DNA of 64,000 nucleotides from Bacteroidota bacterium (lineage in GTDB: Bacteria; Bacteroidota; Bacteroidia; B-17B0; Aurantibacillaceae): positions 1 through 64,000 of the forward strand of contig JAFDXR010000020.1 of NCBI GenBank assembly GCA_018267825.1. The letters are read 5' to 3'. Made by a program: the position numbers and the translations under genes. Below are positions 831-18,634 of this stretch, one piece after another (positions within the stretch are counted from its first letter, which is position 1; each line of letters begins with the position of its first letter). The notes beneath the pieces were generated by a model. It saw only the letters and a list, made by a program, of their open reading frames with translations. It was not told where the DNA came from and did not search any database.

Positions 831-1010
831 ACCCAACGGATTGCAAGCTTGCACAGTGCGGTTTTGGAACACTCGTCAACCGAATGTTTTTATTGGAACA
901 CCATGCTTGCTTTTTGCTTACATGAAAATACAACTTTCTGCGAAGCAGGCAAAATTGTAAGCAAAAAACTTATTCGTCCGCCCGCATTGTGCAATTGCTT
1001 GCTGTTACCT
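831..1010 (-). repeat. attC site B (cassette C6), unusually long
   Basis: The left end is ACCCAAC (831-837) and the right end GTTACCT (1004-1010). The arms GCTTGCACAGTGCGG and CCGCATTGTGCAATTGC pair with small bulges. At about 180 bp it is longer than typical attC sites (roughly 60-140 bp). The extra length folds into a second hairpin whose arms TTTTTGCTTACA and TGTAAGCAAAAA are perfect complements. The two ends do not match each other, because each was brought by a different cassette: the right end matches CAGGTAAC at 4074-4081. Confidence 0.8.
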
Positions 1011-1261
1011 GATGCCAGCCGCATTTAGTGAGAACAGTACCAATAGAAGCCAATGTTACTAATTACGAACCCATATGTCTGACAGAAACCGAATGCCACC
1101 TATTAGCAATTTGGAAAATTGCCAGAGCGGGGGAGAACTTGCAAAGCTTTTTTGCGAAATTTTGATTGTGCGGCCAATTTGTGCGTTTTGCAAATGTGCT
1201 TGGCAAGTTATGTGAAGACAAAAATCTACCAGTTCCAATAACTGTGTCCTTTGGAATCGAA
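1011..1261. other. Non-coding 3' part of cassette C6
   Basis: About 250 bases lie between attC site B and the stop codon of the outer membrane protein gene. I see no convincing gene. There is an inverted repeat AACTTGC / GCAAGTT enclosing repeated TTGCAAA-like words (about 1137-1210), which could be a decayed attC arm or the end of an older cassette. Confidence 0.4.
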
Positions 1262-3673
1262 TTAGTGATTGAGTCGATCCTTCTCTTGTTCGTTACTGTT
1301 TGTTTCCCTTGCTGTTATCTTAATTTTGCCAAAGTTGTAATTGATACTTACAACTATACGACGAGTATCTGTAGTAGCACTAAAATTCCAATTTTGATTT
1401 TCAAAATTAACAGATGTACGACCTACATATGAATAAAATAAGTCATTTAGTCCTATACTACAGTCTAAGTTTCCCTTGAGAAATGTTTTTTTAATCGCCA
1501 GAGAAATCATCCATCTAGATTTCAATTGTATTAAGCCTATGTTTTGAGCACTATTGTATAAAGCCGTTACTTCAATTTTAGTATTTTTTGGAGCTATAAA
1601 TGTATTTATTAATGAAGGTGCATATGAAAAAGCTGTTGTTTTAAAAGGTATACTATTTACATCGCCTACAAATTCAATGTATGAAAAAACACTATTTGCT
1701 GTTATGTCCCACCAAGGTTTTAAGCTGTGTTGTATAAATAATGCATAAGAATAGTTATTATTTAACTTCATATTTTTTGTTGTAGCTGTGGTGATTTTTG
1801 TGCTGTCATTTTGTTTTGTATAATAGAGCATAACATTATCTATTCGAGTATATGTAAATGAGTTGGTAATAAGTTCTTTGTAAATATGAGTAAGTTCAAT
1901 AGTGTTACTGTAATGAGGTTGCAGAAAAGGATTTCCTTCGTCATACGAGTATTGATCTCTATAGAATCTAAAGGGATTAAGGTCACTATATTGAGGACGA
2001 TCTATTCGTCTATTTAAATTTAATTGTAGGGTATGGTTATTTGATAAAGAATATTCAATAGACATATTTGGAAACAAATTATAATAGTTTCTTTCAAGTT
2101 TAAATGATTTGATTGTATTTCGACCTAATAAGTTTGTGTTCTCTCCTCTTACTCCAATTTGTAAATTAATTTTTTTAAATGATTTTATGTAATTAAAATA
2201 TATAGCATAAGTTTGTTCAGAATAAGTGTAGTTATTTGTTAGTGATGTATCCTTAGCATAATTGCCTGAAAGGTTGTCTTTTCGTTCAAATAAATAGTTA
2301 TTATTTGTATTAATAAAGCTTGCTTTTGCACCAGATTCAAAAGAAGATTTGGAGTCAATGTTCTTTGAGAAATCTATTTTTGAAGCAAATATTTCTGTAG
2401 TGTTTAAATTATCACTACGGTAGATATTTGCGGGGAGAATCTCTTTATTATTGGCGTCTAAGAAATAATTCTGAATATTACTAGAATAATTTTCAGATAA
2501 TCTTGTGTAATCGGAAGTGAAATTTAGAACGGTTCCTGTCGTATCAAAATGATGTTCTGCATTAATATTGTAGTTATTTGTTTTCCACTTATCAGGTGTA
2601 TAGACAATGGCATTTAGATGTTCGAAACCCAAATTATTATATTGCGTAATTGTATTTGTTCCATTACCATTAGAATTATATGAACCAGGACCACCATCAA
2701 TTTTAAACCCTATAATATTATTTTTATTAATAAACCAATCAACACCAAAGTTATAGGTGAAGCTGTTATCTAAATCCTTGATTGTATTAACCGAATTAAA
2801 CTCTGTGATAGATGAATCAGAGCCAAACTTTTTATTAAATTTTTCATTTCTTTGATAATATCCATTGTTGTAATCTAAATTAGAAAATAAAGCTATTTTG
2901 TTGGTTTTATAATTAAGTGATATTCCTGACATAGATCTAGCATAAAACCCTTGCGAACTGGATGTATAAATACTTCCACTAAAACCAATAAGTTTTGTTT
3001 TTTTTGTTTTGATATTTATTACCCCAGCTGTACCAGAAGCATCATATTTAACGGGAGGATTTTTTAATAATTCTATTTTTTCAACCAATTCAGCATTCAT
3101 ACTTTTAAGCATGTTTATTAACTGAACATTTGTAAGCTGCTGCGGTCTCCCATCAATCATAATTATTGCACCCGATTTTCCATTTAATAATATCACATTG
3201 TTATCAATACTTACACCTGGTAGCTTGGATAGAAGATCATAAACAGTATTACCCTTTGCTAAAGGGCTGTTTTCGATATTTATAATAATATTTCCATTTT
3301 TAAATTCAATATTTTTTTGAATGGCTGAAACGGAAATCTCATTTAAATTATTTCCTTGTTGTTTCAATGTAATATTTAATAAATCAATGACAGATGTCGT
3401 GTCTAAATTTATCATACTACTATACAGAGGTGCAAACCCAACAGCTGTAATTTTAAGAAAATAAATACCTTTATGAAGATTTTGAATTAAACAACTGCCA
3501 TTGTAGTCTGCAATATTACCGCCAATTAACGAACTATCATTTGAGTTTAAAACTCCAATTACAGCAAATGGAATGGGTGTTTGTGTTGAATCAACTATTT
3601 TACACTTTATTATCTGTCCTGATACAGATTTAATCATAAAAAGAGAAAAGAATATCAATAAAGAATATTTCAA
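1262..3673 (-). CDS. TonB-receptor-like outer membrane beta-barrel protein (cassette C6)
   Basis: The product is 803 residues. Residues 1-19 form a signal peptide ending KSVSGQ. Residues 20-110 look like a carboxypeptidase-regulatory-like beta-sandwich (VDSTQTPIPFAVIGVL, GSCLIQNLHKGIYFLKI). A plug-like domain follows at about 115-225 with LSKLPGVSIDNN and IDGRPQQL, and the rest is a large Tyr/Asn-rich outer membrane barrel. This matches the Bacteroidota 'outer membrane beta-barrel family', related to TonB-dependent receptors. No classical TonB box is evident, so transport is not assured and the substrate is unknown. The start is TTG, because no ATG lies upstream of the signal peptide. It is a very large gene for an integron cassette and has long non-coding DNA on both sides. 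Confidence 0.85.
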   Translation of the reverse strand: MKYSLLIFFSLFMIKSVSGQIIKCKIVDSTQTPIPFAVIGVLNSNDSSLIGGNIADYNGSCLIQNLHKGIYFLKITAVGFAPLYSSMINLDTTSVIDLLNITLKQQGNNLNEISVSAIQKNIEFKNGNIIINIENSPLAKGNTVYDLLSKLPGVSIDNNVILLNGKSGAIIMIDGRPQQLTNVQLINMLKSMNAELVEKIELLKNPPVKYDASGTAGVINIKTKKTKLIGFSGSIYTSSSQGFYARSMSGISLNYKTNKIALFSNLDYNNGYYQRNEKFNKKFGSDSSITEFNSVNTIKDLDNSFTYNFGVDWFINKNNIIGFKIDGGPGSYNSNGNGTNTITQYNNLGFEHLNAIVYTPDKWKTNNYNINAEHHFDTTGTVLNFTSDYTRLSENYSSNIQNYFLDANNKEILPANIYRSDNLNTTEIFASKIDFSKNIDSKSSFESGAKASFINTNNNYLFERKDNLSGNYAKDTSLTNNYTYSEQTYAIYFNYIKSFKKINLQIGVRGENTNLLGRNTIKSFKLERNYYNLFPNMSIEYSLSNNHTLQLNLNRRIDRPQYSDLNPFRFYRDQYSYDEGNPFLQPHYSNTIELTHIYKELITNSFTYTRIDNVMLYYTKQNDSTKITTATTKNMKLNNNYSYALFIQHSLKPWWDITANSVFSYIEFVGDVNSIPFKTTAFSYAPSLINTFIAPKNTKIEVTALYNSAQNIGLIQLKSRWMISLAIKKTFLKGNLDCSIGLNDLFYSYVGRTSVNFENQNWNFSATTDTRRIVVSINYNFGKIKITARETNSNEQEKDRLNH

Positions 3674-4074
3674 ATGAATTTATTTAAGTCGTACGATTAA
3701 GTTTTCCGTAATTATTTAATAAATGTTTTTTAATCACTAATATTATGCTAATATCGTAATTCTAAGTTCATTTCAATAAATAATTTAGAAATAAATACCG
3801 CACGCCTGTGGCTTCTGCGCCTTTGACTGAACGGACGTGAGATGCGCAAAAAAGTGCTGAAAGCACACCTTATTGTGTGGGGAGGTAATTTAGCTTATTT
3901 GGTTTTTGCCTGCCTTTTGCAAAAACAAATGTGCTAAATTATGGGATAGCAAAAACGGCTTTTTCAAGCCGATAAAACAGTTTGGATTTCACATACAGGT
4001 CTAGCGAGTTTAGTGAGGTCGAACTGAAGTTTTGTGTCTAAAGTTAAAGTTTGATTTTTCTGTCGGCTGGTTGC
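3674..4074. other. Non-coding 5' part of cassette C6
   Basis: About 400 bases without a supported gene separate the TTG start of the outer membrane protein from attC site C. It contains the hairpin CGGCTTTTTCAAGCCG near 3956-3971 and scraps that look like degenerate coding or attC sequence. It may hold the promoter of the outer membrane protein gene, but I see no clear TAnnTTTG element in a good position. Confidence 0.35.
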
Positions 4075-4264
4075 AGGTAACGGTTTGGGTATTTATGAAG
4101 GGCGGAAAATCAACGAACAAATGTTGAGTTTTGCACTTCAGCAAGCCGAAGCCGTTTTATTTTGCTAAATTACAAAAAAGCAAATAAAAACGGCGAAGGC
4201 GAAATAGTAGTACAAAAGTTGAGGATTAGATTTCAGCCCGCCTTTCATAAATACCTTGTTAGCG
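4075..4264 (-). repeat. attC site C (cassette C5), unusually long
   Basis: The left end is AGGTAAC (4075-4081) and the right end GTTAGCG (4258-4264). The arms GGGTATTTATGAAGGGCGG and CCGCCTTTCATAAATACC pair closely. About 190 bp long, it carries an extra inner hairpin near 4150-4195 with arms GCCGTTTTATTTTGC and GCAAATAAAAACGGC. The right end GTTAGCGGC pairs with GCCGCTAAC at the start of cassette C5 (5409-5417). Confidence 0.82.
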
Positions 4265-4298
4265 GCACACCCTTTTCTATTCATGTTAAGGATGTAAC

Positions 4299-4745
4299 TT
4301 ATACAAATTTACTGATTAAACTGTCTAACGAATACTTTCCACTTCCTGTTAGCAGCAGAGCGACGCAAATTCCAATAACTAAAAGATGATATTCAAATCC
4401 TTCTCCCTTTTGAGCACCAAACCAATTCATAAAGAACCCAAACTTATAATTTGTTGTGATAATTGCTCCTATCATAATTATTATAAATAGTAAAGCACAG
4501 ATTCTGCTACTAAATCCAATAATAAACGCAATGGAGCAAAAAAATTCAATGAAGATTATAAGCAAAGCAATTACCCACGGTAGTTTCATCGTATCTGTAA
4601 AATAACTCATAGTGCCTTTAAAACCATAACCACCAAATAGACCAAATAACTTTTGCATTCCGTGTGGAAGCATTACTGTACCAAGTATCAGTCTAAGAAT
4701 TAACCCAGTCCATGAGTTGTCTGAAAAAAAGAATAGCTGTTTCAT
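4299..4745 (-). CDS. DoxX family membrane protein (cassette C5)
   Basis: This is a 148-residue inner-membrane protein with four hydrophobic segments. The N-terminal LRLILGTVMLPHGMQKLFG is the DoxX-type motif, with the conserved helix-loop containing HGxQKLFG. A longer reading frame exists, but the ATG at 4743-4745 is preferred because the family motif follows it at the usual distance. DoxX proteins are associated with redox and thiol stress, with no settled biochemical activity. It lies 55 bases downstream of a Crp/Fnr regulator, a pairing common in Bacteroidota that suggests control by that regulator. No terminator is visible before attC site C. Confidence 0.88.
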   Translation of the reverse strand: MKQLFFFSDNSWTGLILRLILGTVMLPHGMQKLFGLFGGYGFKGTMSYFTDTMKLPWVIALLIIFIEFFCSIAFIIGFSSRICALLFIIIMIGAIITTNYKFGFFMNWFGAQKGEGFEYHLLVIGICVALLLTGSGKYSLDSLISKFV

Positions 4746-4800
4746 GTCTTGTTTTTTATGCAAAAGAAATAGCAAAAAAAACAAAAAACGTTAATGTAGA

Positions 4801-5388
4801 TTAAGAAAGTGATGTCGCTCTTTTCTTTCTTAAAACACTTAAAAATTCCGGGCTGATTCCCAAGTAAGATGCAATAAGTTTTTGAGAAATCCTCAATTCA
4901 AGGTTGGGGTATTTGGCTTTAAAATGAAGATATTTTTCTTCTGCCGTAAGCGAGAGGTTTTGCATAATTCGTTGTTGAAGGGCTATAAATCCATTTTGCC
5001 AACGGGCATTTGAAAATTTTTCAAATTTAGGTATCTGTTGATGCAATAAATCATAGTTTGACTTGCTAATTTGAAATACTGTTGTTTCTTCAATTGCTTG
5101 TAAGAAATAAAATGATGGTTTACAGTGGAGAAAGCTGTCTAAATCCACAACCCACCAGTCCTCCAATGCAAATTTTATTATTGATTCAGTCCCTTTATCA
5201 TCAACATATCCCACTTTAAGGCATCCAGAATTTACAAAATAATCATATCGGCAAATGTCGCCAGTCCTTAATAGATATTTCTTTTTTTCTATCACTTTAA
5301 ATTCCAAAAGAGAAATGAAGAAATCAACCTCTTCGTTGGTGAGCTTTATGTCTCTTGATATATTTGATATGATCAAATCAAAGTTCAT
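4801..5388 (-). CDS. Crp/Fnr family transcriptional regulator (cassette C5)
   Basis: The 195-residue protein has a cyclic-nucleotide-binding-like beta-barrel at about residues 25-125 (LLRTGDICRYDYFVNSG, IKFALEDWWVVD), a long dimerisation helix and a C-terminal winged helix at about 160-195 (QKLIASYLGISPEFLSVLRK). The Cys residues are not arranged as an Fnr iron-sulfur ligand set, so oxygen sensing is not supported and the ligand is unknown. It precedes doxX. Only about 28 bases separate its ATG from the cassette start, so it probably depends on transcription from upstream cassettes or from a promoter inside attC site D. Confidence 0.88.
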   Translation of the reverse strand: MNFDLIISNISRDIKLTNEEVDFFISLLEFKVIEKKKYLLRTGDICRYDYFVNSGCLKVGYVDDKGTESIIKFALEDWWVVDLDSFLHCKPSFYFLQAIEETTVFQISKSNYDLLHQQIPKFEKFSNARWQNGFIALQQRIMQNLSLTAEEKYLHFKAKYPNLELRISQKLIASYLGISPEFLSVLRKKRATSLS

Positions 5389-5410
5389 GAATGCGTCTGT
5401 TGTGGGTTGC

Positions 5411-5543
5411 CGCTAACGGAAAAAGGCTTTGCGAAGTTGGGGCATTAAAGGCACAAATGTTCAATAAAGCACAAAAGCTCAATAGAATTACCAATGTTCA
5501 AATTTAGCAGTTCTGCCCCAATTTCGCAAAACCCTTGTTGGCG
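5411..5543 (-). repeat. attC site D (cassette C4)
   Basis: CGCTAAC (5411-5417) and GTTGGCG (5537-5543) bound a 133-bp inverted repeat with arms GGCTTTGCGAAGTTGGGGC and GCCCCAATTTCGCAAAACC. The loop contains the word GCACAAATGTTCAAT, which recurs in sites A, E and G in variant form. The right end GTTGGCGGT pairs with ACCGCCAAC at 8987-8995. Confidence 0.88.
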
Positions 5544-5584
5544 GTTAGTGGCTTTTGTTGTCCACTGTTGGTCGTTTGTTTGCC

Positions 5585-5620
5585 TAAAATAAAAAGGGCA
5601 AACTTCTAATGTGTTTGCCC
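5585..5620 (-). terminator. Rho-independent terminator after oleate hydratase
   Basis: Read on the minus strand, an 8-bp stem (GGGCAAAC / GTTTGCCC, 9-base loop) is followed by a run of T with one A. It lies 27 bases beyond the oleate hydratase stop codon and inside the same cassette. Confidence 0.85.
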
Positions 5621-5646
5621 CTGTATTGTTTTTACAAGTTTCAATT

Positions 5647-7242
5647 CTAACTTCTGTATGAAGTATGAATTGCTTTTGCCAAAACGTCCGGGCGTTTCCA
5701 ATAGTGAGTAACAGGCGCCACTTCTTTATTCAAATTCAAAAGCGTATAAACCGCTTGTCTTGCTGCACGAACCGAATATTCTTCCGTGAAAACCATATCT
5801 TCAGGTATTTCTACAAACTGGCTAATCATTGCTAAGTTGGTAGAACCTTCTGGGACCACAAAGGGGCGGTCGGCTTTAGCGTGCGGTTGAAACAACGCAT
5901 CAATGTAAGGCATCATACAAGGAATAACATTGATAACGCTATCTTTTATTTCTTGTTCGTGTTCTTCAAAATGCAAATGATGAATCAACTCCGTCAAAAT
6001 TTCTTCGCCCGTGCAATCAATCATCGGCTTTTTAATAAAGTCCCCGATTTTATCAGGAAATAATCCGTAGCCCCAAAGAATGGTAGTATCATCGCCTTGC
6101 GCTTTGAAATGCGGTTGTGCAGCCACCACAATTGACATCCGCCACGATGAATCTTTAAATGTCATCAAAGCTCCGCTGCCGGGTTTGTTTCCAGTGTATT
6201 CTTCAATAAGTTTCAGAAATTTATTTCCTTTGAATGTTGGTGTGAAAGAATACCATTTTGTTTCGTCAGGTTTGGTAAAGAACGGGTCGGGATTACCCAA
6301 CTTGCCGGGTTTCTTGTTGGCAATTTTACGCCATAATGCAAAACTTGGCGGATTTGAAGGCAAGTATTTTGCAGGCGTGTTATAATCGCCGTTATTAGAA
6401 TTGTCTGTAATACATCCGTTGGTAAAGAATACCAAATCGCCTTCATTCACGGTTATTTTCTCTGTGTTTCCTTCTGCATTGATGCATTCTATTTCCGTTA
6501 CGGTAATGCCATCATTATCGGCAAAATCCAAATCGGTAACGGTTTTTCTTAATGAAAAGTCCACTTTATGCTGGTCCAGAAATGCCTTCAGCGGTAAGAT
6601 AACGGATTCATATTGGTTGTATGGTGTTCTGGTAACGCCTTCGAGTGTTTCGATTCTTGAAAATTCCAACAGCATACGTTTCATATAGCGCTGAAATTCA
6701 AAAATGCTGCTCCATTCCTGCCAGGCGAAAGTGGTTTGCCACATATACCAGAAGTTGGTCGTAAAAAAATGATCGTCAAACCAATCACGAATGGTAATGT
6801 TGTCTAAATCATTTTCATCGGCAAAAAACAATTTCAAAAATTTCATCCGGTCCTGAGTGTTGAAACCCATATCCGTTACAGGTAAAATGTTTCCGTTCTT
6901 GTCAATCAATCGAGCTTTTGCCTTTGTCGGATTCGCGTGGTCAAATGCCAGAATTTCGTCTTTTACTGAAATGTTCGGGACATCCAGAGAGGGGATACGG
7001 GATGTTAATTCCCAAAAATTTTCATAGGTTTCTTCGTTGAGCATACGCCCGCCACGACAAATAAATCCTTTTTCTTTTGTTCCTGCACCATCGTTGCTAC
7101 CTCCCAAAATCGGCAGGGCTTCAATGATGTGTATGTTTTCGCCTTTAAATCCAGCATCTTCCAAAAGATAAACTGCTGCGGAAAGACTTGCCAAACCGCC
7201 TCCTACTAAGTAAGCGTGTTTTGTTGAATTGTTTGCACTCAT
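5647..7242 (-). CDS. ohyA: Oleate hydratase, FAD-dependent (cassette C4)
   Basis: The 531-residue protein belongs to the oleate hydratase (myosin-cross-reactive antigen, MCRA) family, which adds water to the cis-9 double bond of unsaturated fatty acids such as oleate to give 10-hydroxystearate. The FAD-binding site is YLVGGGLASLSAA at residues 11-23, followed by IIEALPILGGSNDG, the family RGGRMLNEETYENFW segment and DIRDWF-like substrate-lid motifs. Length is normal for the family. It is the last gene of a three-gene cassette (regulator, dehydrogenase, hydratase) and is followed by its own terminator. The 42-base gap to the dehydrogenase gene fits one operon. Likely roles are detoxifying host or environmental unsaturated fatty acids or making hydroxy fatty acids. 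It is unusual as integron cargo. Confidence 0.95.
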   Translation of the reverse strand: MSANNSTKHAYLVGGGLASLSAAVYLLEDAGFKGENIHIIEALPILGGSNDGAGTKEKGFICRGGRMLNEETYENFWELTSRIPSLDVPNISVKDEILAFDHANPTKAKARLIDKNGNILPVTDMGFNTQDRMKFLKLFFADENDLDNITIRDWFDDHFFTTNFWYMWQTTFAWQEWSSIFEFQRYMKRMLLEFSRIETLEGVTRTPYNQYESVILPLKAFLDQHKVDFSLRKTVTDLDFADNDGITVTEIECINAEGNTEKITVNEGDLVFFTNGCITDNSNNGDYNTPAKYLPSNPPSFALWRKIANKKPGKLGNPDPFFTKPDETKWYSFTPTFKGNKFLKLIEEYTGNKPGSGALMTFKDSSWRMSIVVAAQPHFKAQGDDTTILWGYGLFPDKIGDFIKKPMIDCTGEEILTELIHHLHFEEHEQEIKDSVINVIPCMMPYIDALFQPHAKADRPFVVPEGSTNLAMISQFVEIPEDMVFTEEYSVRAARQAVYTLLNLNKEVAPVTHYWKRPDVLAKAIHTSYRS

Positions 7243-7284
7243 ATAATATTTTGTTTTTGATAGTTTGAAAAAAATTACTCTCTT

Positions 7285-8181
7285 TTATTTAAGAAAATCT
7301 TTGTCCTTGTAGGCAGGATTAGGGTATTTATAAAAACCTTCGCCTGTTGATATGCCTAATTTCCCTTTATCCATAAACTGTTCTTTAAGCGTTGCTACCG
7401 CTTTTATTTTTACCGGGTTTTGTGTAGCCTCCGCTTCCATTTTATTGATGTTGTATGCTGTGGTAATACCTACCACATCCAAAATTCCGAAAGGACCAAT
7501 AGGCGCTCCTGTTGCCACCATCCAAGTTTTATCAATGGTTTCAATATCTGACACTTCGTTTACCCAAAGATTCATTGCTGCATTTAATAAAGGAACGAGC
7601 AATGAGTTTACAATATAGCCGGGTTGTTCTTTGTAAATTGGCAATGCAACCATTCCTATTTGTTTTGCAAATTCTAACACGTCATCAAATGTTTTTTGTG
7701 ATGTGCGAGCGTGCTTCATTACTTCGCCTGTGTTATGTTTCCAAATTTCATTGGCAAAATGTAACGCCACAAATTTTTCGGGACGACCTGTTGCATCAGC
7801 AAATTGGCTTGGCAATAATGTAGAAGAATTGGTTGCAAAAATTGTTTTTTCGGGAGCTACTTTAGATAGTTTATTGTAAAAATCAGTTTTGATTGCAGGA
7901 TTTTCGGGAACAGCTTCCACCAATAAATCTGCGTCTTTTACGGCTTCTGCCAAATCAGAAGTATAGCTAAGTCTTAACTTAGTAGCATCTAATTGCTCTT
8001 GCGTTGCTTTGAGGTCGTTTTTAAACGCTTCGCTCAAAACATCAAACTTGGATTTTGCTTTTTCCAAAACCTCATCGTTGATGTCATACAGGGTTACATT
8101 AAATCCGTGAAATGCTGTTTGAAACGCAATTTGGTAGCCCAAAACTCCGCTACCTGCGACTGTTACATTTTTGTATCCCAT
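7285..8181 (-). CDS. 3-hydroxyacyl-CoA dehydrogenase-like NAD-dependent dehydrogenase (cassette C4)
   Basis: The 298-residue protein has the N-terminal Rossmann fold with VAGSGVLGYQIA (GxGxxG at residues 10-15) and an Asp (LYDIN) that prefers NAD. The NSSTLLPS and HFANEIWKHNTGEVM segments contain the Ser, His, Glu and Asn typical of the 3-hydroxyacyl-CoA dehydrogenase family. The helical C-terminal domain has GPIGPFGILDVVG. It resembles 3-hydroxybutyryl-CoA dehydrogenases in size. Placed directly before oleate hydratase, it may instead oxidise the secondary alcohol that enzyme makes (10-hydroxy to 10-oxo fatty acid), since long-chain secondary alcohol dehydrogenases of this superfamily are known. 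That is inference. A large inverted repeat lies 44 bases upstream of its start. Confidence 0.88.
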   Translation of the reverse strand: MGYKNVTVAGSGVLGYQIAFQTAFHGFNVTLYDINDEVLEKAKSKFDVLSEAFKNDLKATQEQLDATKLRLSYTSDLAEAVKDADLLVEAVPENPAIKTDFYNKLSKVAPEKTIFATNSSTLLPSQFADATGRPEKFVALHFANEIWKHNTGEVMKHARTSQKTFDDVLEFAKQIGMVALPIYKEQPGYIVNSLLVPLLNAAMNLWVNEVSDIETIDKTWMVATGAPIGPFGILDVVGITTAYNINKMEAEATQNPVKIKAVATLKEQFMDKGKLGISTGEGFYKYPNPAYKDKDFLK

Positions 8182-8224
8182 TGCTTTTTAATTTAAAAGT
8201 TAATACAGCAAAGTTCGGCATACA

Positions 8225-8254
8225 TTTTAGGATAGTTTTTCATCTATCTTAAAA
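8225..8254 (-). promoter_or_regulatory. Candidate Crp/Fnr operator before the dehydrogenase-hydratase operon
   Basis: The arms TTTTAGGATAG (8225-8235) and CTATCTTAAAA (8244-8254) match at 10 of 11 positions around an 8-base spacer. The repeat sits between the regulator gene and the operon. A weak -7 element (CAAAGTTC on the plus strand, 8209-8216) places its centre roughly 35-40 bases before transcription, a position used by activating Crp-type proteins. Confidence 0.55.
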
Positions 8255-8273
8255 AATGATTTTGACAATAAAA

Positions 8274-8837
8274 TCAGGATTTAGCTGACCTGATTACGCT
8301 CAAAGTTTGTTGTGTGATACCAAGGTAGGAAGCGATGTGCCCAAGTGGGGCACGAAAAAGTATATCGGGGTTTGTTTTGAGCAAAATGTTGTACCGCTCT
8401 AGTGCAGACTGAAATTGCAGGGAATACAGATGCTCTGAAAGCTGCTTAATAGCAGAAATAGCAACATAATGAGCAAAGTGCTGCAATTTTACGTGTTCGT
8501 CTATATGTTTTTCTAATGTTGAATAATCCACCGTTCTTATGATGCTGTTTTCCAACAACTCAAGGTTGTAGGGATAGTGTTGGTTCAGAAAAACATTTTC
8601 TATCGGAACATAAATACCGCCCTCTGTATAAAAATGCCGGGTAATATCTTTGCCGTCTTTTACATAATAAAGTCGTAGCAATCCCTTTTCAATAAAGAAC
8701 ACTTTTTTTGAGCGACTGCCGTCTTTCAATAGTTGATGTCCTTTCAGCAATGATTTATCGTCAAACAAATCGTCAATCTGTTTTGCTGTTTCAGGTGAAA
8801 ATCCTGCGTCTTTTTGTAAGTATTCTGCAATGTTCAT
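8274..8837 (-). CDS. Crp/Fnr family transcriptional regulator (cassette C4)
   Basis: The 187-residue protein has the cyclic-nucleotide-binding-like barrel at about residues 20-120 (GHQLLKDGSRSKKVFFIEKG, FYTEGGIYVP), a connecting helix and a short C-terminal helix-turn-helix (HIASYLGITQQTLSVIRS). It is distinct from the regulator in cassette C5. The winged-helix tail is short: the protein ends soon after the recognition helix, as in many Bacteroidota members. It lies 92 bases upstream of the dehydrogenase gene with an inverted repeat in between, so it most likely controls the fatty-acid genes of its own cassette. Ligand unknown; a fatty acid or acyl-CoA is only a guess. Confidence 0.88.
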   Translation of the reverse strand: MNIAEYLQKDAGFSPETAKQIDDLFDDKSLLKGHQLLKDGSRSKKVFFIEKGLLRLYYVKDGKDITRHFYTEGGIYVPIENVFLNQHYPYNLELLENSIIRTVDYSTLEKHIDEHVKLQHFAHYVAISAIKQLSEHLYSLQFQSALERYNILLKTNPDILFRAPLGHIASYLGITQQTLSVIRSAKS

Positions 8838-8856
8838 TTTGTTTCAAACCACTGCA

Positions 8857-8864
8857 CAAAATTA
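8857..8864 (-). promoter_or_regulatory. -7 element (TAATTTTG) for the cassette C4 regulator
   Basis: On the minus strand TAATTTTG fits the Bacteroidota TAnnTTTG consensus. It lies 20 bases before the ATG of the regulator and inside the cassette, so cassette C4 seems to carry its own promoter. A TTTG lies upstream but closer than the ideal -33 spacing. Confidence 0.5.
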
Positions 8865-8988
8865 AAAATAATTGTAGTCAAAATTGATTTCTACTTGCTG
8901 GGTGGTGGGCTTTGGTTTATAGTATTTCTATTTTTTTTCGTATCAGGTTGGGATTTCTGTTTGTCGGCAAGGGTCGCTGTGCCATTAC

Positions 8989-9120
8989 CGCCAACGGTTT
9001 GCAGCTTGGCGAAGTGGCGGAAATCGAAGGACAAATGTTGGGTTTAGCACAAAAGTTCAATAGAATTACTGCTGTTGAATTTAGCACTAAACCCGCCATT
9101 TTGCCAAACTGCTGTTAGTT
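8989..9120 (-). repeat. attC site E (cassette C3)
   Basis: CGCCAAC (8989-8995) and GTTAGTT (9114-9120) bound a 132-bp inverted repeat with arms GCTTGGCGAAGTGGCGG and CCGCCATTTTGCCAAAC. The right end GTTAGTTGCA pairs with TGCAACTAAC at 10296-10305. The loop shares ACAAATGTT and AAAGTTCAATAGAATTAC words with site D. Confidence 0.92.
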
Positions 9121-9130
9121 GCAGTATTTC

Positions 9131-9763
9131 TTATTTCGTGTTCTCATTAATTTCCTTTTGCAAAGTAGTAATTTTATCTTTAAGGTTATTACTTATTTTG
9201 CTTGGTATGTCTTTCACTTTTTTAAGGTCAAATGAAAGAATAGTTAACGCAGTACCAATAAAAATAAATGCTAATGCTGTTGCTGTTACAATTGAAATCC
9301 CTGAAAATATTGGGTTTGCCAAAAGTATGAACGAAAAAACAATACCTAATACACTTGCTATGGCAAGGTTTCCCCATCTCAAAATACCCAAAGATTTCAT
9401 ATCAAATGCAATTCCTAACAATTGGAAAGAACGAAACATTACCGTAAATCCTACAATAAATGGTAAAATAACAATTGAAATTCCAGGATAAATTACCAAA
9501 TAAACACCCATTGTTAATGAAAAAAGACCTCCAACTAAATACCAACCCCAACCAGAAAGTGTTTTTGAATTTTGAATGGAAAAAAATATTTCAAATAATC
9601 CAGAAGTAATAAACGATATACTAAATAATATTGACAGCGTTACATAAGTTTCCAGAGGCACTGTAAAAATGTATATACCAAAAACTAAAAACAAAATGCC
9701 CAAGATAAGTGGCACATACCAATGTTTGATTGAATTAATTAACGTGTTTAATAAATTTGCCAT
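9131..9763 (-). CDS. HdeD-like (DUF308) membrane protein (cassette C3)
   Basis: The 210-residue protein has six hydrophobic segments in three pairs (for example LILGILFLVFGIYIF, WYLVGGLFSLTMGVYLV, LAIASVLGIVFSFILL), the repeated architecture of the HdeD/DUF308 family. A short Lys-rich cytoplasmic tail follows (DKITTLQKEINENTK). HdeD is linked to acid resistance in enterobacteria, but other members have no known function. It lies six bases downstream of a coiled-coil protein gene in the same cassette, so they form an operon. The stop codon is only ten bases from the attC right end, a compact layout normal for cassettes. Confidence 0.8.
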   Translation of the reverse strand: MANLLNTLINSIKHWYVPLILGILFLVFGIYIFTVPLETYVTLSILFSISFITSGLFEIFFSIQNSKTLSGWGWYLVGGLFSLTMGVYLVIYPGISIVILPFIVGFTVMFRSFQLLGIAFDMKSLGILRWGNLAIASVLGIVFSFILLANPIFSGISIVTATALAFIFIGTALTILSFDLKKVKDIPSKISNNLKDKITTLQKEINENTK

Positions 9764-9769
9764 TGTAGT

Positions 9770-10201
9770 TTATTTTAATGATTTATAAGAATTTGCTTCT
9801 GCTCTAGCTTTAACTGCCTCAATGACTGCTTCTTGAGCATCCGATATTGCATCTAATGCAAAATAGACACTCATTTCTGCGTCATCTTCTGCCCACTCTG
9901 CACTCATTTCTGCATCCGCAGCTTTCAAATTATACTTCGCTTCCCTAAAGTCTGCTTTTACTTTTGAAACACCATTGTCCCAATTTGATTTTACATTGTC
10001 CCAATGAGATTTAACTTCATTTTCAAGAGAATCTTTTTTTGCATCAAATGCCGCTTTAGTTTCGGCAACATTTTCTTTAGCACTGTTTTGCCATTGTTGA
10101 AGTTGCTCTTTAGAATCGTTTTTGGAAGTTTGAAATTTGTCTTCCAATTGTTTTGCTTTAGCTGTCAGATCTGCTAACAACTCTGATAATTTCTTTGCCA
10201 T
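9770..10201 (-). CDS. Helical coiled-coil protein, possible stress protein (cassette C3)
   Basis: The 143-residue protein is Ala-, Lys- and Glu-rich and almost wholly helical. Two similar segments (KEQLQQWQNSAKENVAETKA and SHWDNVKSNWDNGVSKVKA) have spacing like late-embryogenesis or apolipoprotein-type amphipathic repeats. The acidic stretch SAEWAEDDAEMSVYFALDAI follows. There is no signal peptide. It precedes the HdeD-like gene by six bases, so the pair may act at the membrane under envelope stress; that is inference. I know of no assigned function. Confidence 0.7.
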   Translation of the reverse strand: MAKKLSELLADLTAKAKQLEDKFQTSKNDSKEQLQQWQNSAKENVAETKAAFDAKKDSLENEVKSHWDNVKSNWDNGVSKVKADFREAKYNLKAADAEMSAEWAEDDAEMSVYFALDAISDAQEAVIEAVKARAEANSYKSLK

Positions 10202-10298
10202 AATTATGAATATTTATTTTTTGCCTACTTCTTAATACGGTGTTCGGCTTGTCCGTTTTTATTTATTATATTATTGTACTGCTGTTTTCTAATATTGC

Positions 10299-10391
10299 AA
10301 CTAACGGCCCGTCTGTTTGCGAAGATTAAAGTAACCATTAAAAAACAAACAACAAAGGTCGTCTTTTATTTTCGTAAACAGAATGTTAGGC
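10299..10391 (-). repeat. attC site F (ORF-less cassette C2)
   Basis: AACTAAC (10299-10305) and GTTAGGC (10385-10391) bound a 93-bp repeat with arms TCTGTTTGCGAAGA and TTTTCGTAAACAGA. Only 25 bases separate it from site G, so cassette C2 (10305-10422, 118 bp) has no room for a gene. Its ends, GTTAGGCG and CGCCTAAC, match. Confidence 0.82.
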
Positions 10392-10416
10392 GTCAGTGGG
10401 ACCTTGTGAGCATTGC

Positions 10417-10549
10417 GCCTAACGTTTTGCGGCTTGGCGTAGTGGCGGATTTTTAGCACAAATGTTCAATCGAAGAACTGCACTTGAACCTACCACAAAA
10501 CTGTCATACGAAGCACTGCACCCGCCATTACGCCAAACCGCTGTTAGGC
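10417..10549 (-). repeat. attC site G (cassette C1)
   Basis: GCCTAAC (10417-10423) and GTTAGGC (10543-10549) bound a 133-bp repeat with arms GCGGCTTGGCGTAGTGGCGG and CCGCCATTACGCCAAACCGC, the cleanest pairing in the array. The right end GTTAGGCGC pairs with GCGCCTAAC at the attI junction (12398-12406). Confidence 0.93.
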
Positions 10550-10568
10550 GCTGTTGCTCTTTCTGTGG

Positions 10569-11339
10569 TCAAGGTTTACCTGTCTTTTGAGTTACTGTCA
10601 CCCAAGATTTGTCGAACCCAAGTGCCTTTAAGATTTGGTCTTTGTCAAGCGTTTTTGGTTGTTTGATTTTTATTACCAAACATTTTTCTGGAACGTCTTC
10701 AACAATTGTAAACTGTGAACCGTGCGGTTGCCATGTAAAACAATGTTCTCCTGTCTTTTTATGCGTCCCTACAAGGTTATTATTCTTGTTCCATTCCCAA
10801 TTGTATAGTTCGTAGTCATAACGAATGGTGTCAAACTCAAATACAACAACTTCGGAGAGGTCGTTTGACTTCACCAATACTACCGTTCTTAAATGTTTGT
10901 GTTTTTCTCTAATTGCTGAAACTCTTTCGTTCCAAATTTCAAGAACAAGTTTGCCAATTAAAGTCGGGTCTGCTTTTTGGTCGCTTCGTTCTCCAAATGA
11001 ATAGTTCGGTGAGTTTCGTCCCGAAATTAGTCTTACACGTTTTTGAGTAGATGGCTTTGTAGCTTTTACAGTCTTTGCACCCCAAGCGGTGTTGCCCATT
11101 ACAACATCGTCAAGCCCAACATTTGAAGGTTTCCAGTCCGCGCCAATGCAAGTTGCAAAAATGCTTTCCCATTCAGAACCTTCAAGTTCGGGTTTGCCTT
11201 TTGAAGCCAACAAATAGATTAACTCTTTGCCGAGCAAAAAGGGAAAGTCTTTCGGAAATTCATTTAACGGAAAAGCCGAAACAGACTTATTTACTGTTCT
11301 TAATTTCGGTGATTTATTGTTCTCCATATCTGACTTCAT
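10569..11339 (-). CDS. Probable type II restriction endonuclease (cassette C1)
   Basis: This 256-residue protein partners the cytosine methyltransferase upstream, overlapping its 3' end by 26 bases. The segment SNVGLDDVVMGNTAWGAKTVK (residues 72-92) contains Asp77/Asp78 and Lys89/Lys92 in an order like the PD-(D/E)XK nuclease core (D...xxK), followed by VRLISGRNS. The paired-gene arrangement and this motif make a restriction enzyme the best call. The cut site cannot be read from sequence. It could instead be a specificity or control protein, though its size argues against that. An alternative start, ATG at 11327, is possible. Confidence 0.72.
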   Translation of the reverse strand: MKSDMENNKSPKLRTVNKSVSAFPLNEFPKDFPFLLGKELIYLLASKGKPELEGSEWESIFATCIGADWKPSNVGLDDVVMGNTAWGAKTVKATKPSTQKRVRLISGRNSPNYSFGERSDQKADPTLIGKLVLEIWNERVSAIREKHKHLRTVVLVKSNDLSEVVVFEFDTIRYDYELYNWEWNKNNNLVGTHKKTGEHCFTWQPHGSQFTIVEDVPEKCLVIKIKQPKTLDKDQILKALGFDKSWVTVTQKTGKP

Positions 11340-12291
11340 ATTCTCTTAAAACCGAAGTCATATCCATAGTGGTTGCTACAAACGGTAATAGTTTTAAAAT
11401 AACTGCTTTTACTAAATTCACTGGAACTGCATTTCCAGCTTGTTTTCTTGCTTGTCCGTCTGCTACAACAATTTTATAGCTGTCGGGAAAACCTTGTAAG
11501 CGAAACATTTCTCTTGGCGTTAATCGTCTTTCTCCGTTTACAAGCAAATAGTTGTATGATGCTCCTGCACGCAAGGCGCAAGAGTAAGGATAAGAACAAA
11601 TATTACCTGCTTTATTTTCGTGCCAAATAGAAAGTTTGTAAGCTGACTTGTGAGTTTCTTTGCGCTTTTGTGCAATGTATTCAGAAGCGTAATGTTTTTT
11701 GTCAACCTTTTTTTCAAGTATTTCTGAAAGTGGTTTGAATGGTCTAACTGGAGAGGGAAAACTAAACATAATAGGCTCTCTGTGTCCAACAATAATTACA
11801 CGTTCCCGTTTTTGAGGAAGTCCGTAATCAAGTGCGTTTAAGACTGCAAATTTTACTGAGTAGCCTAAATCTTTCTCTAAAGTCTTAATGATAGTTTTTA
11901 GCGTTTTACCACCGTTATGTCCAACAAGTTGTTTGACATTTTCAAGCACAAAAGCCTTTGGTTTTTTGTGCTTTATTATTCTTGCAATGTCAAAAAACAA
12001 AGTTCCCCTGATGTCATTAAAACCTTGCATCTGTCCGATTATGCTGAAAGGTTGGCAAGGAAAACCGGCAAACAAAATATCGTGGTCGGGAATATCTTTT
12101 TCGTCAACTTTTGTGATGTCGCCTGTCGGTCTATGCCCAAAGTTGGCTTCATAGCTGTCTTGGCAATATTTGTCAATGTCAGATGAAAACACACACTCGG
12201 GAATGAGGTCGTTTTCTATGCAGGCTTGGTCCATCGCTGTCCGAAAACCACCGATGCCACAAAAAAGGTCTATAAATTTTATTCTTTCCAT
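11314..12291 (-). CDS. DNA (cytosine-5) methyltransferase (cassette C1)
   Basis: The 325-residue enzyme transfers a methyl group from S-adenosylmethionine to C5 of cytosine. Motif I is IDLFCGIGGF (residues 7-16), the catalytic PCQ loop is FAGFPCQPFS with Cys79, the ENV motif is at about 117-119, and motif VIII is QKRERV. The target recognition region (about 185-265) is followed by motif IX RxLTPREMFRLQGFP and motif X GNAVPV. I chose ATG at 12291 over the TTG six bases upstream. A TAACTTTG -7 element (plus strand CAAAGTTA, 12311-12318) lies about 20 bases before it. The adjacent downstream gene is the probable restriction partner. This is the cassette closest to attI, therefore probably the most recently inserted or best expressed. 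Confidence 0.95.
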   Translation of the reverse strand: MERIKFIDLFCGIGGFRTAMDQACIENDLIPECVFSSDIDKYCQDSYEANFGHRPTGDITKVDEKDIPDHDILFAGFPCQPFSIIGQMQGFNDIRGTLFFDIARIIKHKKPKAFVLENVKQLVGHNGGKTLKTIIKTLEKDLGYSVKFAVLNALDYGLPQKRERVIIVGHREPIMFSFPSPVRPFKPLSEILEKKVDKKHYASEYIAQKRKETHKSAYKLSIWHENKAGNICSYPYSCALRAGASYNYLLVNGERRLTPREMFRLQGFPDSYKIVVADGQARKQAGNAVPVNLVKAVILKLLPFVATTMDMTSVLREYEVRYGEQ

Positions 12292-12399
12292 TGTCAAAAT
12301 GTTAGTTGGTCAAAGTTAATATTTTGGTCTTTATGTGCTTTCATTTTCTGTCAAAAGTTATCCAGTCTGTCTGTTGATTTAGGGTCGTCCTGCAATTGC

Positions 12400-12566
12400 G
12401 CCTAACTCTTTATTATACGCAAAAATACAAAATTATCTCAAATAATCGATTTTCACATAACTACTTGTTCTTCAGATTATAAAATCAAATAATATTTAAA
12501 ATACGCTATCGTATTTTAAATATTCCTATTTTTGTATTTACTATTTAAATATACGAAATACGCGTG
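12400..12566. other. Putative attI site and cassette promoter (Pc) region
   Basis: GCCTAAC at 12400-12406 (GTTAGGC on the minus strand) is the junction between cassette C1 and the platform. The 160 AT-rich bases up to the recombinase ATG should contain attI. On the minus strand, facing the cassettes, two TAnnTTTG elements overlap closely: TATTTTTG (plus-strand CAAAAATA, 12420-12427) and TAATTTTG (CAAAATTA, 12428-12435), about 15-30 bases from the junction. They are good candidates for Pc. No second inverted GTT core is obvious beside the junction, as is normal for attI. Confidence 0.6.
12491..12534 (+). promoter_or_regulatory. Perfect palindrome and -7 element before the recombinase gene
   Basis: AATATTTAAAATACG (12491-12505) and CGTATTTTAAATATT (12510-12524) are exact complements around CTAT. 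TATTTTTG (12527-12534) fits TAnnTTTG and lies 32 bases before the ATG at 12567. The palindrome would cover the -33 region, so it could be an operator. Alternatively its 15-4-15 layout could be a recombinase core site. Another AATACG lies at 12557. Confidence 0.6.
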
Positions 12567-13637
12567 ATGAATTTAATGCAAGAAATAGTCTTTACGGCTG
12601 GGCAACACAACAATAAAAATGTCATATGGTGTAAATTTCCTAAAAATGATTTGGTATTATCTGCTCTCAAAAAGCAATTTCCTTTTTGTCGATGGAGTAA
12701 TACAAACAAGTGCTGGTATATAACTGATAGCGTAGAGATTAGAAAAAAAATTAATATTTCTCAAGCAGAACCTACAAAAAATTTAATTCATAAAGTTCAT
12801 CCAATCAATCAGGTTGCACTGCAAAATATACAAAATCAACTACAACTTAAAGCATATAGTTCTAATACAATAAAGGTTTACCTTACAGAGTTTGTACAGT
12901 TATTGGTAATTTTAAAACACCATCCTATAAACGAACTTACTGCCGATAGATTAAAATCATACTTACTTTATTGTGTTAATGAATTAAAGCTATCAGAAAC
13001 CCATTTAAATAGCCGACTGAATGCTATTAAATTTTATTTTGAGCAAGTACTCCATAAAGAAAAATTCTTTTTTGATATACCTCGTCCAAAATCCAAAAGC
13101 ACTTTACCAAAGGTCTTAAGTACAAAGGATATTCAAAAATTATTTGAAGTAACAACTAACATAAAACATAAATTGATGTTGCAATTGTGTTATGGAATGG
13201 GTTTGCGTGTAAGTGAAGTGGTGGAACTTAAAATTACTAATATTGACAGTAAACGTATGCAAGTGCTAATTGAAAACTCAAAAGGAAAATCTGATAGATA
13301 TGTTAACTTACCCGAATCTGTTTTGGCTTTACTCCGCACTTATTATAAAACTTACAAGCCTAAAAATTATTTATTTGAAGGACAATATGGCGGACAGTAC
13401 TCTATTCGTAGTGTTCAATCCGTTTTTAAAAATGCCATGCTAATTGCTAAAATAAATAAATCAGTTGGTATTCATAGTTTAAGGCATAGTTATGCTACAC
13501 ATCTTTTGGAATATGGAACAGATATGGTCTTTATTCAAAAGCTACTTGGACACAAGGATATGAAAACAACCATGATATATGCAAAGGTTGGAAAAAAGGA
13601 AATTCAAAATGTGAAAAGTCCTTTGGATAATATGTAA
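12567..13637 (+). CDS. Integron-integrase-like tyrosine recombinase
   Basis: The 356-residue protein is a complete tyrosine recombinase: SAM-like core-binding domain at about residues 80-165 and catalytic domain at about 180-345. The catalytic residues are visible: Arg214 (GMGLRVSE), Lys241 (SKGKSDRY), His303 and Arg306 (IHSLRHSYATHLL), His329 (LLGHKD) and Tyr338 (TTMIYAKV). It ends VKSPLDNM, like the VRSPLD tail of IntI1. The additional segment that marks IntI proteins between the Lys strand and the HxLR motif is absent. There is instead an N-terminal extension of about 75 residues with RWSNTNKCWYI, a motif I associate with Bacteroidota recombinases. Its place beside attI, divergent from the array, argues for integrase function. 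XerC/D-like or transposon recombinase are the alternatives. ATG is preferred over the GTG one codon upstream. Confidence 0.9.
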   Translation: MNLMQEIVFTAGQHNNKNVIWCKFPKNDLVLSALKKQFPFCRWSNTNKCWYITDSVEIRKKINISQAEPTKNLIHKVHPINQVALQNIQNQLQLKAYSSNTIKVYLTEFVQLLVILKHHPINELTADRLKSYLLYCVNELKLSETHLNSRLNAIKFYFEQVLHKEKFFFDIPRPKSKSTLPKVLSTKDIQKLFEVTTNIKHKLMLQLCYGMGLRVSEVVELKITNIDSKRMQVLIENSKGKSDRYVNLPESVLALLRTYYKTYKPKNYLFEGQYGGQYSIRSVQSVFKNAMLIAKINKSVGIHSLRHSYATHLLEYGTDMVFIQKLLGHKDMKTTMIYAKVGKKEIQNVKSPLDNM

Positions 13638-14588: not shown

Positions 14589-14595
14589 TTCTATC

Positions 14596-15672: not shown

Positions 15673-15674
15673 CT

Positions 15675-15935: not shown

Positions 15936-15936
15936 G

Positions 15937-16764: not shown

Positions 16765-16977
16765 ATGAAAAAACATAAAAGACTGAGCATAGAAGAACTA
16801 AAGAGTTATCCGGGCTTTGAAATTTTTACGGAAGAAGAAGCGGAGCAAGCTATTAAAACATTAGAAAGCTTGTCTATTCTTCTTTACGAACTGTTCATGA
16901 AAGAAAAGAATGAAAATGTAAAACATTTAAAACAAGAAGAAAATCATGAAACAGAACAACAACGCCTTGCTGCTTAA
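16765..16977 (+). CDS. Small protein upstream of the serine recombinase
   Basis: This 70-residue, helical, charged protein begins MKKHKRLSIEELKS. I chose ATG at 16765 because a full Shine-Dalgarno sequence (GGGAGGTG) sits six bases upstream, which is notable where such sites are rare; a longer frame from 16723 is possible but lacks one. The reading FEIFTEEEAEQAIKTLESLSILLYELF is amphipathic. It overlaps the recombinase gene by 32 bases, so it may be a recombination directionality or accessory factor, or simply a translation-coupling leader. Unknown family. Confidence 0.6.
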   Translation: MKKHKRLSIEELKSYPGFEIFTEEEAEQAIKTLESLSILLYELFMKEKNENVKHLKQEENHETEQQRLAA

Positions 16978-18634
16978 TAAATTTGCAAAAGGCAAACAAT
17001 CGGATACCATAGTTACAGAGGTATTAAATTGTGTCATTTACACCCGTGTAAGCTCAAAAGAGCAAATGGACACAAACCAAAGTCTTGAATGGCAAAAAAA
17101 ATATTGCGAAGAGTATGCAATCAAAAATAAACTCAACATCAAGGGTTACTTTGGCGGAACTTATGAAAGTGCAAAAAGTGATGAGCGTAAGGAGTTCAAC
17201 CGGATGCTAAAATTTGTAAAAGCCAGTAAAGAAGAGATAACTTATATCCTTGTTTACAGTTTGGATAGATTTAGCAGAACAGGAGATAGCGCCATTTATA
17301 TTGCCAGTGAACTAAAGAAAGTTGGTGTTAACATCATGGCTGTTACACAGCCAATAGATACCAATTCACACGCAGGTGCTTTGCAACAAAACATCCAGTT
17401 TATTTTCAGCAAATACGATAATGATTTGCGAAGACAAAAAACCATTGACGGCATGCGTGAAAAATTACTTCGTGGAGAATGGATTGGTGTTGCACCCAAA
17501 GGTTATAGGTATGTAAAAGGAGCCGAAAAGCAAACCATCATTATCAATGAGCAGGGAGAGTTGGTTCGGCAAGCTTTTGAGTGGCGTGCCAATGGAATGA
17601 CCTACGATCACATTGTAGAGAAATTAGCGAACTACGGAATGAAAATGCCAAAGCAAACCTTAACAGACACTTTCAGAAATCCTTTTTACTGTGGTTATCT
17701 TTCGCATAATCTTCTGAATGGTGAGTTAGCTAAAGGGAAACATCCTCCACTTATAAGCGAGGAATTGTTTTTTAGGGTGAATGAACTTAAGAAAACAGAT
17801 GGGTTTAAATGCAACAAGGTAAATGACAACTTGCCGCTTCGGGTATTTGTAAAGGATGCAGAAACGGGCGTTCCATTCACTGGCTATCTTGTAAAAAAGA
17901 AAGGGCTTTATTACTATAAAGTCAATAAGATTGGAATACACGTCAATAGAAGCGTCAAGATTATGCATTCCAAGTTTCATGAGTTATTATCCCAATATGA
18001 GATAAACCCTGCCTATTTGGAGCCTTTAAAGGCGCAATTAGGTTATACTTGGGAAAACCTGACAGAAACCAACACAAGCGAGAAAAAGGGGCTTTCCTTG
18101 CAATTACATTCGGCAGAGGAAGAATTCAAAATCCTACGTAAAAGGCATGCTTTAGGGCAGGTAAGTTTGGATGTTTATACAGAGTTTGGCGAGGAAATGG
18201 AAAAGAAGGTAAAAGCTATTTCTGAAGAACTAGCAAAATTGGAACAAAATTTATCGAACCCAAAAGAGCTCATCAATTACACCTGCAAAATGGCCTGTAA
18301 CCTTAGTAAAATGTGGGATTGTGGCGACTTCTACCAAAAACAGATGTTTCAAAACACCATGTTTCCTGCCGGTTTGGGTTATGATGCAAAAATTGAGCAT
18401 TATCGAACCGCAGAAGTAAATTGCATTTTCTCTCTAATCGCTGATTTATCAAAGGATTGGAGCGAAAATAAAAACGGGACTTCTCAAATTTTTATTGAAA
18501 AGTCCCGCTCAGTACCCAGGACGGGACTCGAACCCGTACACCTTGCGGCACACGCCCCTCAAACGTGCTTGTCTACCAATTCCAACACCTGGGCAGGTGT
18601 AATAAGGGACCGCAAATTTGGGAATTTTTTTTAA
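16946..18634 (+). CDS. Large serine recombinase whose frame runs through tRNA-Leu
   Basis: The resolvase/invertase catalytic domain (about residues 29-165) has IYTRVSSKEQ with the nucleophile Ser36 and SLDRFSRTGD. The 'recombinase' DNA-binding domain follows (about 170-260, GVAPKGYRY), then a beta-ribbon part and a coiled coil (LHSAEEEFKILRKRHALG onward). It lacks the zinc-ribbon cysteines of many family members. The natural protein probably ends near residue 505: the last 50-odd codons are the antisense of the tRNA-Leu terminator and of the tRNA itself (SVPRTGLEPVH). The stop seen at 18632-18634 is therefore chromosomal. It is likely the integrase of the island or of the iteron module. Confidence 0.9.
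   Translation: MKQNNNALLLNKFAKGKQSDTIVTEVLNCVIYTRVSSKEQMDTNQSLEWQKKYCEEYAIKNKLNIKGYFGGTYESAKSDERKEFNRMLKFVKASKEEITYILVYSLDRFSRTGDSAIYIASELKKVGVNIMAVTQPIDTNSHAGALQQNIQFIFSKYDNDLRRQKTIDGMREKLLRGEWIGVAPKGYRYVKGAEKQTIIINEQGELVRQAFEWRANGMTYDHIVEKLANYGMKMPKQTLTDTFRNPFYCGYLSHNLLNGELAKGKHPPLISEELFFRVNELKKTDGFKCNKVNDNLPLRVFVKDAETGVPFTGYLVKKKGLYYYKVNKIGIHVNRSVKIMHSKFHELLSQYEINPAYLEPLKAQLGYTWENLTETNTSEKKGLSLQLHSAEEEFKILRKRHALGQVSLDVYTEFGEEMEKKVKAISEELAKLEQNLSNPKELINYTCKMACNLSKMWDCGDFYQKQMFQNTMFPAGLGYDAKIEHYRTAEVNCIFSLIADLSKDWSENKNGTSQIFIEKSRSVPRTGLEPVHLAAHAPQTCLSTNSNTWAGVIRDRKFGNFF
18463..18507 (-). terminator. Terminator of tRNA-Leu
   Basis: On the minus strand an 8-bp stem (CGGGACTT / AAGTCCCG, 17-base loop) is followed by GTTTTTATTTTC. 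It begins five bases after the tRNA 3' end. It also lies inside the serine recombinase reading frame. Confidence 0.8.
18513..18594 (-). tRNA. tRNA-Leu (anticodon GAG)
   Basis: The cloverleaf reads on the minus strand. The acceptor stem is GCCCAGG with CCTGGGT (first pair G-U), with D-arm TTGGAATTGGTAGACAAG. The anticodon stem CACGT/GCGTG has loop TTGAGGG, giving GAG at positions 34-36. A long class II variable arm (GTGCCGCAAGGTGT) and T-arm GGGTTCGAGTCCC follow. The long variable arm and GAG agree on leucine. CCA is not encoded. It reads CUC/CUU codons. Confidence 0.93.

Follow-up and report, generated by a model that had tools for sequence, protein, structure and literature searches.

Cassette C4 occupies 3.6 kb of the minus strand near the beginning of a contig from a Bacteroidota bacterium of the family Aurantibacillaceae, of which a stretch of 64,000 nucleotides, hereafter the window, was analysed. 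Read along the minus strand, the cassette carries a Crp/Fnr-type regulator, a dehydrogenase of the 3-hydroxyacyl-CoA dehydrogenase (3HCDH) superfamily, an oleate hydratase and a terminator. The features considered here, with the basis of each assignment, are as follows.

5415..5539, minus: attC D, the attC of C4 (structure scan, R'' match to the C4 start, stem pairing)
5417..8994, minus: cassette C4 from crossover to crossover, 3578 bp (match between start and own attC, rank 1)
5588..5620, minus: intrinsic terminator, GGGCAAAC-N9-GTTTGCCC and a T-run (sequence; folded within a 95-nt 3' stretch)
5647..7242, minus: oleate hydratase, 531 aa (PRK13977, 725 bits, cut-off 567)
7285..8181, minus: dehydrogenase of the 3HCDH superfamily, 298 aa (PRK08293, 450 bits, cut-off 312)
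8225..8254, no strand: imperfect inverted repeat, proposed operator (11-nt arms with 10 positions paired, loop of 8)
8274..8837, minus: Crp/Fnr-type regulator, 187 aa (cNMP_binding PF00027, 31.6 bits, cut-off 27.5)
8857..8864, minus: candidate -7 element TAATTTTG before the regulator (perfect TAnnTTTG; weak)
8993..9116, minus: attC E, the attC of the preceding cassette (stem pairing and clustering)
12399..12563, minus: attI, with TAnnTTTG elements that resemble promoters and are directed into the array (identity with genomes G028 and G275 breaks off exactly here)
12564..13637, plus: platform integrase (TIGR02249, 187 bits, cut-off 265, with a gap at the IntI-specific region)
16946..18634, plus: large serine recombinase, located where the island ends at tRNA-Leu (PF00239 and PF07508)

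The neighbouring cassette (4081-5416) pairs a Crp/Fnr gene with the effector DoxX. An Rfam scan of the whole window returned 0 matches.

Boundaries of the C4 cassette

A structure scan for AAC...GTT hairpins identified exactly six sites in the 64 kb, all of them inside 835-10545, while shuffled sequences gave 0-1. C4 ends in one of these, attC D, whose imperfect hairpin contains the R and L boxes, and it begins at the G|TT of attC E (8995/8994). Among 31 sites pooled from several arrays the arms pair at 82% of positions, compared with 52% (s.d. 1.9%) when arms were re-dealt, and the stems contain many compensatory pair types. Pairing is in a single register, without bulged bases and with one conserved A-C mismatch. 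The structure scan, the clustering and the matches between starts and R'' boxes together indicate that attC D and E are, as originally predicted, genuine attC sites.

In the circular form of an integron cassette, the start (TTRRRY following the crossover G) is joined to the R'' box of the cassette's own attC, so that the two have to match. We applied this as an end-pairing test in which every GTT near each site's end was admitted, for all comparisons. The start of C4 is complementary to the R'' box of attC D, and of the 1,202 GTTs on that strand only the one at 8995 matches it so well; across the window's seven cassettes, pairing each start with its own attC was the unique best of 5040 permutations. 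Over six arrays the test confirmed 24 of 25 cassettes, with the start ranking first among 274-393 GTTs. By this comparison the two ends of C4 belong together, and the implied crossover points reproduce the predicted interval 5417-8994 to the base. The match between the start and its own attC also supports the view that C4 is a single self-contained multi-gene cassette. We put the probability at roughly 0.7 that C4 is a genuine integron cassette that moves an operon for processing unsaturated fatty acids as one unit, its movement being predicted from comparative evidence of cassette capture at attI.

Regulation, enzymes and origin of C4

The -7 element proposed for C4 is present as a perfect TAnnTTTG, TAATTTTG, about 20 bp ahead of the regulator, though inspection of the upstream sequence found no TTG at the usual -33 spacing. 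The terminator following the hydratase could likewise be located, a stem of GGGCAAAC and GTTTGCCC followed by a T-run; a consensus scanner passed over it because its loop of 9 nt exceeds the 8 that the scanner allows. Owing to its own promoter and terminator, C4 would be expressible at any position in the array. The 30-bp inverted repeat also exists, but is at most a candidate operator: an equally good repeat arose in 170 of 2000 shuffles (8.5%) of the 92-bp gap in which it lies, which places it near chance, and its core pattern occurs at three sites in the genome against five for a control pattern. As a genome-wide regulon motif it was rejected for this lack of enrichment.

The best relatives of the regulator share 37-38% identity with it and none exceeds 38% in 395 genomes of the class; the nearest (loci L086 and L087) have unrelated neighbouring genes, and no homolog lies beside any other oleate hydratase in 80 loci. 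One instance favours a link between Crp/Fnr genes and the dehydrogenase: at locus L143 a dehydrogenase of 60% identity comes immediately after a Crp/Fnr gene (36%), and between the two lies a perfect TTTGACATATGTCAAA, a site unlike the C4 repeat. Control of the operon by the Crp/Fnr protein is probable.

Both enzymes assigned to C4 score above their curated profile cut-offs. The hydratase is a full-length MCRA/PRK13977 match and its closest solved structure is the monomeric Rhodococcus enzyme 5odo. It lacks the catalytic Glu of the RGGREM motif, reading RGGRML with Met instead, a form shared with the active Rhodococcus enzyme and about 30% of family sequences (PMC8403116); we count that study as further support for hydratase chemistry. 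The dehydrogenase has the 3HCDH fold with its NAD site (PF02737, PF00725). Its closest solved structure is the diketoreductase 4dyd (phmmer, 324 bits), with which it has in common the stretch HFAN...W..NT.EVM, where the human CoA enzyme has HFFNPVPVM, and the predicted protein resembles a diketoreductase more closely than it does any enzyme with demonstrated activity on 10-hydroxystearate.

Judged by their families, the hydratase would hydrate oleate or palmitoleate to 10-hydroxy acids, which the dehydrogenase would oxidise to 10-oxo acids, leaving unsaturated fatty acids less toxic or opening them to degradation. Oleate hydratases of Staphylococcus inactivate antimicrobial unsaturated fatty acids (PMC7948970). 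The predicted two-step conversion of oleate to 10-hydroxystearate and on to 10-oxostearate appears to be the best reading of the enzyme pair. It is plausible since, among the related loci of Bacteroidota, roughly half have the two enzymes side by side, and since a Nocardia member of the superfamily, annotated as a 3-hydroxybutyryl-CoA dehydrogenase, converts 10-hydroxystearate to 10-ketostearate (PMC7101164). That they act in series in this host is a part of the prediction drawn from other genomes, given that in C4 the nearest relatives of the two enzymes differ and their order is reversed. The family name PRK08293 and the diketoreductase as best solved relative would fit a different role, in which the dehydrogenase is an ordinary or CoA-dependent 3-hydroxyacyl-CoA dehydrogenase or a diketoreductase of fatty-acid degradation that does not act on 10-hydroxystearate, the benefit coming from the hydratase by itself. 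We hold this to be possible but distinctly the less probable option, in view of its repeated occurrence next to oleate hydratase across several families of Bacteroidota and of the activity of the Nocardia enzyme; moreover the host already has two other, ordinary 3HCDHs (28-32% identical, also present in relatives), which makes the dehydrogenase of C4 an extra one.

A horizontal origin of C4 is indicated by its hydratase, a kind that 59 relatives lack, among them 36 members of the host's own family, and yet 95% identical in amino acids and 92% in nucleotides to that of Epilithonimonas. The dehydrogenase groups with those of Chitinophaga terrae, Olivibacter, Flavobacterium sasangense and Empedobacter (up to 82%), whereas in the Epilithonimonas species with the closest hydratase the nearby dehydrogenases reach just 53-60%. 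In the related loci the hydratase gene comes before that of the dehydrogenase (L010-L012, L014-L016, L019, L021, L022 and L024, and less tightly L018), the opposite of the order in C4. The reversed order and the differing relatives of the two enzymes mark C4 as a mosaic, so that it appears to be an assembled cassette and not a transplanted chromosomal regulon. Downstream of an unrelated regulator, an Epilithonimonas-like hydratase would have been combined, in reversed order, with a dehydrogenase of the lineage found in operons with OhyA. The search originally suggested, for the same three genes at other Bacteroidota loci, turned up the enzyme pair repeatedly and the regulator beside no other oleate hydratase.

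In Flavobacterium sasangense (L010) we identified a second such cassette, in which attC sites at about 1692-1825 and 7205-7387 flank the operon AraC - OhyA2 - OhyA - dehydrogenase. Among the 264 GTTs of that strand the start of this cassette takes first rank, and one GTT in a coding region of the other strand scores higher. Counting C4, there are thus at least two occasions on which the enzyme pair was made into a regulated cassette. In Empedobacter stercoris a near-identical segment with the dehydrogenase (98.3% over 2.27 kb) stops just inside the attC that closes the L010 operon. Inspection of the Olivibacter-type (L014, L016), Chitinophaga and E. bovis loci showed no attC after the dehydrogenase. 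A conserved vestige of the OhyA stop before the dehydrogenase was considered and is not claimed, its basis being an AT-rich alignment only.

An integron platform and its proposed Xer-like integrase

The recombinase gene at 12564-13637 is oriented away from the array and adjoins attI, whose crossover GTTA is at 12403-12406. Its product is an Xer-like tyrosine recombinase with an N-terminal extension of about 85 aa and without the additional I2 domain specific to IntI. Its alignment with the structure of the Vibrio integron integrase (2a3v) is interrupted by a gap of about 35 residues; homologs have the same gap in TIGR02249, at model positions of about 181-239, and in 18 close homologs the spacing from the GLR to the HxLRH motif is 91 aa.

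The recombinase is 100% identical in G028, a genome of the same family but another genus, and in G275, from another family. From the attI GTTA to the tRNA-Leu at 18595, the island end common to the window and both of these genomes, identity across the three is 99.5-100%. It breaks off at the same base in all of them, beyond which each has different DNA on the array side, and in every array the start of the first cassette fits that cassette's own attC. Comparing these platforms thus shows that different cassettes were captured at a fixed attI. In six platforms attI keeps a conserved distance of 158-210 bp ahead of the recombinase gene; where its position was not preset, the best-ranked start was found 159-210 bp upstream of that gene. 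We infer that this recombinase acts on the attC sites described here. C4 would be excised by it at single-stranded attC hairpins and would then insert at attI or at another attC. The I2 domain accommodates the extrahelical bases of attC (PMC4792948) and serves to recognise IntI (PMC9668308); the joint absence of I2 and of attC bulges is consistent.

Two other accounts of the array and of C4 have to be weighed. The score below the IntI cut-off and the missing I2 domain would suit an array of degenerate repeats that the Xer-like recombinase does not move and that a canonical IntI elsewhere once did. This we consider very improbable, as no IntI above the cut-off occurs in any of the six genomes that carry such a platform, the attI distance holds in all six, and the same recombinase in three genomes is adjoined by different first cassettes that start at the same base. 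C4 itself might be a regulator cassette and an enzyme cassette fused through loss of an attC, which the 92 bp separating regulator and enzymes and the regulator's want of linkage to oleate hydratase elsewhere would favour. Such a pair should have retained the regulator cassette's own start, but it is the start before the regulator that matches, uniquely, the attC after the hydratase, and the end-pairing test found no boundary within C4 scoring within 2 points of the start at 8995; the Crp/Fnr gene immediately ahead of such a dehydrogenase in L143 also counts against fusion. Fusion was rejected on the absence of an internal boundary and we regard it as unlikely, if somewhat less so than the degenerate array.

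It is probable that Bacteroidota have a distinct, so far unrecognised kind of integron, with an I2-less Xer-like integrase bearing an N-terminal extension, bulge-less attC sites and regulated operons as routine cassettes, C4 being one of two fatty-acid regulon cassettes found. At least two ORFs in the sense direction are carried by 14 of the 24 confirmed cassettes in the arrays studied here; an apparent seven-ORF cassette at 4163-9487 of L131 fails the end test, probably conceals a missed site and was left out of this count. C4 is large and tidy yet typical of its kind, and the novelty is the kind.

Relation to known integrons and oleate-converting systems

Integrons are usually seen as collectors of mostly single, promoterless genes, with an integrase defined by its I2 domain. 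Here whole operons travel as cassettes with their own regulator, on a platform that has neither I2 nor bulges. The larger finding is this platform, in which hairpins without bulges are combined with an integrase lacking the IntI-specific I2; it makes the requirement of I2 for cassette recombination directly testable and suggests that software based on I2 profiles overlooks integrons in a major phylum. C4 in turn would supply, ready for use, a pair of enzymes leading from oleate to 10-oxostearate. The only complete integron that IntegronFinder 2.0 reported from Bacteroidetes is one in Salinibacter (PMC9024848). We found no description of I2-less integrons of Bacteroidota in the literature searched, and one may exist elsewhere.

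Cassettes generally carry one ORF, sometimes two or none (PMC8618304); C4 is unusual by that standard, but not within this type of integron. Cassettes with two ORFs or their own promoter, such as toxin-antitoxin cassettes and cmlA1, share with it the 3' attC, the TTRRRY start, the tandem array and the possibility of an own promoter (PMC8876359, PMC8618304), whereas C4 has a regulator, two enzymes and a terminator, and the L010 cassette four genes. The AraC - OhyA2 - OhyA - dehydrogenase operon, found in Chitinophaga terrae (L012), Olivibacter (L015), Flavobacteriaceae bacterium PS02337 (L016) and the L010 cassette, likewise has the same two enzyme families adjoining on one strand. C4 differs from it in the reversed order, the absence of OhyA2, a Crp/Fnr regulator in place of AraC and another hydratase sublineage. 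With the secondary alcohol dehydrogenases of Nocardia and Micrococcus (PMC7101164) the C4 enzyme shares its superfamily, and the Nocardia enzyme, of about 290 aa, serves the same two-step route with an oleate hydratase; there, however, the genes are unlinked, and the C4 enzyme is of the PRK08293 type and is likened to them by description. As for the platform, it resembles the canonical integron of IntI, attI and Pc in its divergent integrase, adjoining attI, promoter-like elements reading into the array and single orientation of cassettes, and departs from it in an integrase without I2, attC stems without bulges and residence in a serine-recombinase island in tRNA-Leu.

A mobile island at tRNA-Leu

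The island spanning 12403-18595, comprising the integrase, a serine recombinase and the tRNA-Leu target, is 99.5-100 % identical across three genomes from two families (the window, loci L127/L128 and L129) with different cassettes in each, a pattern which, on sequence comparison, marks it as a recent mobile integron. The integrase (12564-13637) groups with those of loci L127 and L129-L137 in a single Xer-like family lacking the IntI-specific additional domain I2, found alongside attC arrays and spread over several Bacteroidota families, with attI lying 158-210 bp upstream of the integrase gene. Homologs were identified in 34 of 395 genomes of the class (E < 1e-70).

Between attI and the integrase, conserved palindromes of the TTTAAAATACGATAGCGTATTTTAAA type and TAnnTTTG elements occur at 12410-12560, and both recur in the equivalent interval of L130-L132. 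These may represent an integrase operator and a cassette promoter.

Cassette content and attC stems

Other cassettes of the array
4081-5416, cassette adjoining C4: another Crp/Fnr regulator and a DoxX protein
10305-10422, cassette without an ORF: 118 bp, hardly more than an attC
10423-12405, first cassette: C5 cytosine methyltransferase, plus a protein of 256 aa that matches no family

The 256-aa protein is probably the restriction partner of the methyltransferase. Elsewhere (L014, L015 and L016), Olivibacter and a bacterium of the Flavobacteriaceae share an OhyA2-OhyA-dehydrogenase segment at 99.9 % identity, which points to another recent transfer.

The attC stems are paired except at pair column 23/8, where a single A-C mismatch, which reads T-G on the bottom strand, is conserved; this mismatch is a candidate strand-selection mark replacing extrahelical bases.
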